Shown here: piece by piece, positions 1 through 1,838 of the stretch
Layout of the letters: every line of letters starts with the position of its first letter
How positions within the stretch are numbered: position 1 is the first letter of the stretch
Assembly: GCA_947501885.1 (NCBI GenBank)
Contig: CANMXN010000001.1
Coordinates: forward strand, 186,001 to 250,000
Source: an uncultured Sphingorhabdus sp.
GTDB lineage: Bacteria > Pseudomonadota > Alphaproteobacteria > Sphingomonadales > Sphingomonadaceae
Length of the DNA stretch: 64,000 bases
Direction: 5' to 3'
Position numbers and translations under genes: made by a program
The notes under the pieces: model-generated
Told to the model about the DNA's origin: nothing
Databases searched by the model: none
The model's input: only the letters and a program-made list of their open reading frames with translations

Positions 1-92
1 ATCAGGACTGGAAGGCCAAAGTTCTCAAGCTCACGCACAGAATACTCGGCTTCAAGAAGCTTATTGCGAGACAATTCGAGGACTTGTTTCAT
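1..92 (-). CDS. 5' end of an unknown gene, truncated by the window edge
   Basis: An open frame starts at ATG 92..90 and stays open to the left edge, giving 30 codons that begin MKQVLELSRNKLLEAE. The start codon lies inside the last codons of the SIR2-like gene in an ATGA overlap (stop TGA at 91..89), the usual sign of translational coupling. The visible residues are polar and look helical or coiled. The family cannot be recognised from 30 residues. By position it should encode the partner of the SIR2-like protein; whether that partner is a nuclease, ATPase or something else is unknown. Confidence 0.6.
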   Translation of the reverse strand, partial: MKQVLELSRNKLLEAEYSVRELENFGLPVL

Positions 93-1417
93 ATGTCTAG
101 CTCCGATTCTGCCGTTTCTCGAGAAAACCAGCGCGTCGCTGCTGCTCTGGCAATTGAGCCCGTTCCACCGACTCTAGCGACGCTAGATGGAAGACTCAGG
201 TCTGCGGCTCCAACAGCAATCACTATATCGGGAGCAAGTATGGGCGACAGCTTCTCTGCTTCAAAAGTGCTCTGTACCTCGGATAAGATTTGGTTCGGTG
301 TTCGGATTACGCGAATTTTTTGGCCATTGAGATTCCAGTAACTGTCGTCTGCATTTGCCCCTTTAGCGCGCAAACGGAGAATCGTCATTCCCAACAACGG
401 TTCGATGACAGGCTCTCTCTTCGTTGACGGTACGCCAGGACTGCAACCTTCCAGATCGCGCCGAATGTGCCATAGCACGTTAGCATCGGAACTCGGATGC
501 TCTAACCAGTCTTCATTGACATTTTCATTCATCGAATCGCTGTATGCATCTTTTCCAGCGTGTAGGACACGCCGGATTAGCGAAGAAGAAAAATTAACTC
601 TCAATTGGTTGAGAAAGACTGCCCCTGATTCTTGCACATGATAAAACTCTGCCGCCCGATTTTGACCTAGTTCATATAAAACTGGGGCTTTCTCTTCGAA
701 TTCGGCTGAATCACATGGGTCAACAACTATGATACGATTGGGATTGGATGCTTCAAGAGACATTGCTAATAAGTCATTGATGTAATCCCAATCTGTCCAG
801 TAACCTACGACAATTAGATCACGATCAAGTAGTTGTTGTGATAGCCACGCAGAACAATCCTCTAACCTCTGCTTCGTTTCTGGTTCGCTCACCTGACCAA
901 CCGCCCAAATTGTTGTGCTCTTATCTGACCAGCATCCGTGAAGTTTCAAAAGTGGCGAAACATCAGGTGGGAAAGCTGCCACCTGATTTCTGGTCAAACC
1001 CGTGGAGACATGTCCGGATAGATGATTGCCAGCCGTTTCTATAAGTATGTCGACATTCGTTGAAACTCCAATTGTGAGTGCATTAGTAATCAACAAATCG
1101 GCGATAGCGAAGTGTCCGTCGTTTGGATAGGCCGCAAAAGCATGATGATCCACATACTGCCTAAGGTATGAAGTAACCAATTCGTTCTGTTCAAAAAAGA
1201 ACTGAGCCTGATCATCTATGCTCTCTGGCAGTGGGGAGCGTGTTGTACCAAAGGTAGCATCATATTTCTGCTTTGCCGTCTTGGCGATACTGGCAGCGCT
1301 AGGCAGCGAGCTTGGGGGAGCCATCGATAACCCTGCTCCACATAACACTGCCAGCCGGTTGCCTAGTATTGCATCCACAGCTTTCTCAACACCTTGAGTG
1401 GGTGTGATCTGTTCCAC
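89..1417 (-). CDS. SIR2-like NAD-binding domain protein, possible defence effector
   Basis: This 442-residue protein has a SIR2-type Rossmann core in its N-terminal half: GAGLS at residues 27-31, an STNVD motif at 119-123 matching the (T)TNxD catalytic/NAD site, LKLHG at 157-161 with the likely catalytic His160, and VVGYWTDWDY near 203-212. Residues from about 240 to 442 match nothing I recognise. Prokaryotic SIR2-like proteins with this TNxD plus KLHG pattern often act as NAD-depleting effectors in anti-phage systems such as SIR2-HerA, DSR and pAgo-SIR2; assignment to any of these is inference. The gene overlaps a second gene at its 3' end, and an AT-rich gap separates it from tRNA-Lys. Its composition looks richer in GC than that gap, which would fit acquisition. 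Confidence 0.75.
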   Translation of the reverse strand: MEQITPTQGVEKAVDAILGNRLAVLCGAGLSMAPPSSLPSAASIAKTAKQKYDATFGTTRSPLPESIDDQAQFFFEQNELVTSYLRQYVDHHAFAAYPNDGHFAIADLLITNALTIGVSTNVDILIETAGNHLSGHVSTGLTRNQVAAFPPDVSPLLKLHGCWSDKSTTIWAVGQVSEPETKQRLEDCSAWLSQQLLDRDLIVVGYWTDWDYINDLLAMSLEASNPNRIIVVDPCDSAEFEEKAPVLYELGQNRAAEFYHVQESGAVFLNQLRVNFSSSLIRRVLHAGKDAYSDSMNENVNEDWLEHPSSDANVLWHIRRDLEGCSPGVPSTKREPVIEPLLGMTILRLRAKGANADDSYWNLNGQKIRVIRTPNQILSEVQSTFEAEKLSPILAPDIVIAVGAADLSLPSSVARVGGTGSIARAAATRWFSRETAESELDI

Positions 1418-1762
1418 TAAAATATCTTACTGAGTTTGATAATATTAAATATAAATTGATCCATACCATAAACTATTAATGAAAAATAAGAATAATTCAA
1501 ATTAGTATAAAGGGTTTAATTCATTTGTTAACCTCTAAAGTTAAAATAAGATGCTAGAATTTAAATAATAATGATCTTAAGCATTGCTGTTAACAGTAAT
1601 TTAAAATTATTGTAGAGTAGGGAAATCAGGGGTCATATACCGCATACTTTCATAAGATAACTAGGAAGGACCCAATGTTCAACTATTGACCTGCACGTGC
1701 TTACTCCGTGATTACCAGAGAAACGAAGCTGAAGCTTGAAAAATATTAAGTTATTGAAAATA
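1418..1762. other. AT-rich intergenic gap between SIR2-like gene and tRNA-Lys
   Basis: This 345-base stretch has no long open frame. It contains a near-palindrome at 1583-1600 centred on CTGTTAACAG, and a strong ribosome-binding-like AGGAAGGA at 1663-1670 before ATG 1675 on the plus strand. That frame stops after four codons (TGA 1687) and then reads on openly to TAA at 1747-1749, which looks like a decayed or tiny gene. No integrase and no duplicated tRNA end were seen. Confidence 0.6.
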
Positions 1763-1838
1763 TGGTGAGCCCTGCTGGGTTCGAACCAGCGACCTACTGA
1801 TTAAAAGTCAGTTGCTCTACCTACTGAGCTAAGGGCCC
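1763..1838 (-). tRNA. tRNA-Lys (anticodon TTT)
   Basis: Read on the minus strand, the 76-base sequence folds as a cloverleaf: acceptor GGGCCCT against AGGGCTC (one G-U pair), anticodon stem ACTGA/TCAGT enclosing the loop CTTTTAA with anticodon TTT, a GGTTCGAACC-type T arm, and a genome-encoded CCA at the 3' end (1765..1763). The 3' end faces the SIR2-like module, which is the side where integrative elements usually insert. Confidence 0.97.

Follow-up and report, generated by a model that had tools for sequence, protein, structure and literature searches.

Genes and family matches of the operon

We analysed a stretch of 64,000 nucleotides (the window) from an uncultured Sphingorhabdus sp. (G000:C1:186001-250000, within a 2.65-Mb genome of 21 contigs) and focused on a SIR2-like gene at its left edge and two downstream genes, which match the Lamassu components LmuC and LmuB. 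The locus was extended leftward; a position on the extended locus, L003, is the window position plus 18000. The LmuA-like effector gene occupies window 89-1417 on the minus strand, has a GTG start and encodes 442 amino acids (aa) with an N-terminal SIR2 domain and a C-terminal region. An earlier reading of the window from its letters (the sequence-only reading) had described a SIR2-like protein with the motifs GAGLS, STNVD and LKLHG; all three are present, and Pfam SIR2_2 matched residues 118-241 at 30 bits against a cut-off of 24.5. A second gene had been reported to start inside the stop codon and to be cut by the edge, and this held: its ATG at window 90-92 lies within the SIR2 stop codon (89-91), giving a shared ATGA and a 4-base overlap, and the gene leaves the window at the left edge after 30 codons (window 1..92). 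The rest was read from the extended genome sequence. This gene, lmuC, covers L003:17556-18092 on the minus strand and encodes 178 aa. It overlaps by 4 bp with lmuB, which encodes 672 aa on the same strand (L003:15541-17559). Thus, the supposed two-gene module has three genes in the order SIR2, 178-aa gene and 672-aa gene, overlapping throughout.

The sequence-only reading had matched the partner to no named system. This was overturned: the 178-aa protein exceeded the cut-off of Pfam MComp1 ('ABC-3C system Middle Component 1'; 29.6 bits vs 27.3) and matched PADLOC LmuC (E 1.9e-5), and the third gene, for a Rad50/SMC-like ATPase, matched PADLOC LmuB (E 4.6e-36) as well as Pfam SMC_N and AAA_23. 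A housekeeping partner, raised earlier as a possible outcome, was rejected on the LmuC and MComp1 matches. The LmuB motifs (Walker A, hook and signature) were found in 58-61 of 61 family sequences, and the hook has the form CPxC; for this set, two short sequences were removed from 63 and eight split rows were left aside.

As a rule, a Lamassu system contains LmuA, LmuC (the 'middle component') and LmuB, an SMC-like protein of about 650 aa in which a CPxCG hook is frequent; sirtuin (SIR2) is among the N-terminal domains of LmuA listed in section 9 of the same source (PMC10586767). Some systems lack LmuC. A 'Lamassu type II' system that includes LmuC gave E. coli protection against phages (PMC8565338). 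The operon resembles Lamassu/ABC-3C (Lamassu type II, DdmABC) in its order of effector, middle component and SMC-like ATPase, in the membership of LmuC in MComp1, in the length and hook of LmuB, and in an effector that joins an enzymatic N-terminus (here SIR2, a listed type) to a separate C-terminal part. We consider it likely, with good confidence, that the SIR2-LmuC-LmuB operon, carried on a tRNA-Lys integrative element, is a Lamassu/ABC-3C defence operon in which DNA sensing would lead to loss of nicotinamide adenine dinucleotide (NAD). The general type, Lamassu with a SIR2 effector, is already known, since PMC10586767 names SIR2 among the Lamassu effectors.

Several points weigh against this assignment. 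The MComp1 match is weak; it was found in 32 of 40 LmuC relatives at E<=0.1, and the remaining 8 had no match even at that threshold. The Walker B motif of LmuB reads LDDP in 58 of 61 sequences and thus has Asp, whereas LmuB proteins are said to share a Glu-to-Gln change there, a general feature rather than a defining one (PMC10586767). Of the 8 other MComp1-linked ATPases that we examined, 7 likewise have Asp. The effector of the window has neither a PADLOC LmuA match nor a named Pfam C-terminal domain (CTD): the LmuA model was absent from the 16 PADLOC families matched by the 44 effector family members at E<=0.01, and a named Pfam ABC-3C CTD was found in 0 of 44 at E<=0.1.

In a sequence search of PDB, no LmuC relative was found at E<=0.05. 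Matches to its predicted structure give a lead only, toward a nuclease-like fold, the fold class of most rows in this match list being our own label. Promoter-like sites in L003:15000-20000 were uninformative (10 vs 7.2, sd 2.8, in shuffles). The G+C content of the operon, 0.469, is slightly high compared with sliding windows of the remaining window (mean 0.425, maximum 0.456).

Conservation of the gene trio

Relatives were collected with an alignment of 7 SIR2 proteins (A1) as the query, which gave 64 loci in genome_contigs and 1 in IMG/VR; 7 plasmid loci, out of 10 matched plasmid records, brought the total to 72 (L006-L077). These loci are not independent and include same-isolate pairs, e.g., L017/L037, L053/L060 and L023/L063. 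In a hidden Markov model search of the open reading frames (ORFs) at each locus, LmuC and LmuB lay directly downstream of the SIR2 gene in 70 of 72 loci; the exceptions are L063, whose contig breaks off within the SIR2 gene, and L076, which is a fragment of 50 residues. The tie between the SIR2 protein and its partner is therefore upheld, the earlier reading having allowed that homologues of the two might never co-occur. Among 63 unsplit rows, including the window's own, the SIR2 and LmuC genes overlap by 4 bases in 36, by 1 base in 26 and by 17 in one, and the LmuC and LmuB genes by 4 bases in 62 and by 11 in one; the start codon closest to the upstream stop was used, which biases the counts toward such overlaps.

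Split hits were present in 8 of 71 three-gene rows, and the ATPase was short in two further rows, L056 (locus end) and L068. In a Rhizobium plasmid copy (L009), an IS21 element (L009:8694-11448) lies inside the LmuC gene, between its two pieces. L057 has a small second hit only, and the remaining split copies (L012, L027, L037, L048, L055 and L064) look interrupted. Interrupted copies were counted unmended.

We searched 72,556 plasmid records with the SIR2 protein (E<=1e-4), its C-terminal 158 residues (E<=1), LmuC (E<=1) and the ATPase (E<=1e-10). All four queries matched the identical 10 records, of which 7 are typed conjugative. At E<=1e-3 the ATPase matched 110 records, and all those outside the ten were weaker than 1e-10. 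One point lessens the weight of the co-occurrence. The 65 loci from genome_contigs and IMG/VR were gathered by SIR2 motifs, some from the same isolate, and only the plasmid search started from the ATPase and LmuC to test whether the genes occur together. A point against the Lamassu assignment is that single-sequence tblastn of plasmids at E<=1e-10 recovered LmuB from this clade alone. Over 32 loci, the sets of pairwise identities for the three proteins are correlated with one another (r 0.954-0.972), a level equalled in 0 of 2000 permutations. The operon is rare; 1 of 398 genomes in the phylum sample carried it, namely its own genome. Phage records gave no match at E<=1e-4, and IMG/VR held one relative.

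We also asked whether the SIR2 protein could serve as effector in a different kind of SIR2 defence (SIR2-HerA, Thoeris, DSR, SPARSA or AVAST), with the ATPase beside it by chance. Its predicted SIR2-domain fold and conserved Asn, Asp and His are shared with ThsA, DSR2, SPARSA (SIR2-APAZ), KomC, Avs5 and SIR2-HerA, and a SIR2-HerA pair occurs elsewhere in the same genome. However, these systems differ in their sensors, which are a SLOG domain, Ago, STAND or HerA (in part as given in PDB titles), whereas the window operon has a Rad50-like ATPase and a middle component. The SIR2 gene of the window adjoins LmuC and LmuB, without a neighbouring HerA helicase gene, and the trio stands in order at 70 of 72 loci and co-diverges. 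SIR2-HerA and the other SIR2 systems were rejected on this adjacent gene content, and we regard such an origin as highly improbable.

The SIR2-HerA pair, a second SIR2 system in the genome, lies at L004:9039-12514 (G000:C1 about 1.903 Mb) and matches PADLOC SIR2 (E 1e-207) and HerA (E 0). Judged by eye, the two genes directly ahead of it resemble a type III restriction pair.

SIR2 domain and C-terminal region of the effector

The SIR2 domain covers about residues 1-281 and contains the NADase-type active-site residues N121, D123 and H160. SIR2_2 was found in 42 of 44 effector family members, and the active-site Asn (43/43), Asp (44/44) and His (44/44) are conserved, one member being without the N-terminal part. 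These residues are common to deacylase sirtuins too and do not discriminate NADase from deacylase. The predicted structure of the protein has a pLDDT (predicted local distance difference test) of 90, and anti-phage NADases rank first in the structure comparison; this match list (VIA) tests mostly residues 1-318.

Some other comparisons are less favourable to a NADase. Sirtuins fit the model with a lower root-mean-square deviation over fewer residues, and in a sequence-profile search of PDB the archaeal plain sirtuin 1m2k was best (E 1.6e-5), with DSR2 (1.9e-4), ThsA (4.3e-4) and KomC (7e-4) behind sirtuins. With the single SIR2 sequence as the query, plain sirtuins came first too (E 0.16). In BFVD, three proteins matched at E<=0.001, two of them named sirtuins and one without a name. 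The structure ranking thus favours defence NADases and the sequence profile plain sirtuins, so that ranking does not decide the NADase reading.

The sequence profiles would suit a reading in which the SIR2 protein regulates the ATPase, as a deacylase of proteins or as an ADP-ribosyl transferase, and the operon serves DNA repair in place of defence. However, the top structure matches are defence NADases, and 42 of 44 SIR2 proteins have no CxxC, which we take to be the sirtuin zinc module. The patchy distribution (1 of 398 phylum genomes), the mobile and defence context and the several interrupted copies also argue against a repair function. We consider this reading unlikely, and less likely than a defence NADase.

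The C-terminal region of the effector (about residues 285-442) has no family assignment. In a Pfam scan of the protein SIR2_2 alone passed, whereas SIR2 (12.7 bits) and MukF_C (12.3 bits) fell below their own cut-offs; the unassigned C-terminal part noted earlier is hence confirmed for this protein. A few of the 44 members had weak matches to families other than SIR2 at E<=0.1, counted anywhere along the protein: SnoaL_4 in two, Flavodoxin_3 in one and DUF7556 in one. Kinship with the CTD1-4 effectors was tried and dropped, as hhalign gave a probability of at most 1% with CTD groups of 1-3 sequences each, a size at which distant kinship may be missed. As a control, 8 of 9 effectors from other MComp1 systems matched CTD1-4. 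Effector C-terminal domains are described as variable, a named CTD being common and not obligatory (PMC10586767).

The proposal that the locus is a candidate for something undescribed must be divided. As a whole, the locus falls within the Lamassu/ABC-3C superfamily, which is published and has SIR2 effectors in print, and the proposal does not stand for it. As judged from sequence, the effector C-terminal region is the less described part of this branch, and 'undescribed' fits only there. A 'Lamassu-Sir2' subtype exists in DefenseFinder; a literature search for this name and similar spellings found no paper.

Carrying element, possible targets and proposed mechanism

The sequence-only reading had named, as possible support, a conserved gene pair near phage or defence genes in other genomes, and the operon indeed lies in mobile DNA with defence-gene neighbours. 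A tRNA-Lys(TTT) gene at window 1763..1838 (minus strand), the sole Rfam match on L003, is the insertion site of a 15.9-kb element bounded by a perfect 47-bp direct repeat: attR (window 1762..1808; L003:19762-19808), in the 3' part of tRNA-Lys, and attL (L003:3864-3910). A tyrosine integrase (L003:4058-5320; Pfam Phage_integrase) opens the element and the Lamassu operon lies at the other end. For a 250-aa gene overlapping the integrase end (L003:5317-6069), neither Pfam nor NCBIfam gave a match at E<=1. The element also carries, outside the window on its left, an RNA-repair set of Pnkp ligase (850 aa), RlaP (270 aa) and Hen1 (468 aa) at L003:8080-12840; such a set may repair RNA cleaved by ribotoxins. 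Between this set and the operon, on the opposite strand to the latter, is a GmrSD_N protein of 599 aa (L003:13355-15154; PADLOC HEC-05, E 6e-225).

We compared five congener tRNA-Lys stretches; all five have tRNA-Lys, one repeat match and an adjoining folK. In congener G409 (L107), a PepSY gene lies ~260 bases from tRNA-Lys, vs ~19 kb, beyond attL, in the window's genome; the other four stretches gave no match to the queried left-flank genes. The transporter and PhyH-type genes between PepSY and attL (L003:1316-3759) had no match beside tRNA-Lys in G409. The difference therefore extends past the element, a hint that this site has seen a second insertion or a loss. The labels PepSY, folK, PhyH, transporter, UDG, type III restriction, cysteine desulfurase and sirtuin zinc module are our own assignments, some of them made by eye.

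Neighbours were gathered at 28 of 30 representative loci (ORFs of at least 200 aa; 98 picked, one LmuB piece removed; two loci gave none), and the 97 ORFs matched 84 PADLOC families at E<=1e-20. Among the 25 of these families that were listed are Dsr1, PglZ, DrmMII, IIG restriction-modification (R-M) and TIR-pAgo; six of the 97 ORFs are integrases. As a control, 38 window ORFs gave 2 PADLOC families with 2 members each, both of cysteine-desulfurase type. This contrast counts less in favour of a defence setting than the figures suggest: it is rough, with families rather than proteins counted, sets of different size and source, and several models possible for one protein, and some matches are generic, such as a MobA protein counted as typeIV_RecD.

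The natural targets of SIR2-LmuC-LmuB might be plasmids or conjugative elements rather than phages, with the system acting mainly in mobile-element contests, like the plasmid-restricting DdmABC. The ten plasmid records carrying the system, seven typed conjugative, and the integrative element of the window's copy are consistent with this, and in Vibrio, Lamassu is active against plasmids as well as phages (PMC10586767, section 8). However, the anti-phage neighbours listed above (R-M, PglZ, DrmMII and Dsr1) point the other way. The two readings are compatible and sequence cannot separate them; plasmids and conjugative elements as the natural targets in place of phages seem to us less likely than not.

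For the Lamassu/ABC-3C operon we propose the following mechanism. LmuB, Rad50-like and dimerised through its CPxC hook, would form with LmuC a sensor that keeps the SIR2 protein inactive by way of the effector C-terminal region. When LmuB meets abnormal DNA (ends, hairpins) from a replicating phage or plasmid, the SIR2 subunits would be released or clustered, assemble and hydrolyse NAD, and the infected cell would stop or die ahead of the invader's spread. What the analysis shows is the gene order, its conservation, the family matches, the active-site residues, a predicted SIR2 fold that ranks closest to defence NADases, and a mobile setting. DNA-structure sensing, sequestration, activation by oligomerisation, NAD loss and the anti-invader effect we infer from published Lamassu and SIR2 systems: Lamassu is described as sensing DNA structure, with NAD as a possible target (PMC10586767), its effectors are activated by oligomerisation (PMC12799240), and helical assemblies are named in PDB titles for ThsA, KomC and Avs5.

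More tentatively, and at somewhat worse than even chances, the operon may represent a distinct, self-contained Lamassu branch, in which a SIR2 NADase bears a docking domain of its own, without kinship to the named CTDs, and LmuC is a catalytically dead restriction-endonuclease-like (PD-(D/E)XK) fold, an ex-nuclease serving as a clamp or adaptor between the Rad50-like sensor and the NAD-destroying effector. If LmuC does have a dead nuclease fold, Lamassu would be tied to Rad50-nuclease complexes. The PADLOC 2023 models have a gap here, as no LmuA model detects this effector family. Relatives of the operon, among them plasmid copies of Aminobacter and Rhizobium TA1, occur in many Proteobacteria as a compact, well-conserved SIR2 version of Lamassu. 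The operon would be a good test of whether release and clustering allow a Lamassu sensor to work with whatever effector it is given; loss of NAD would be an easy readout.
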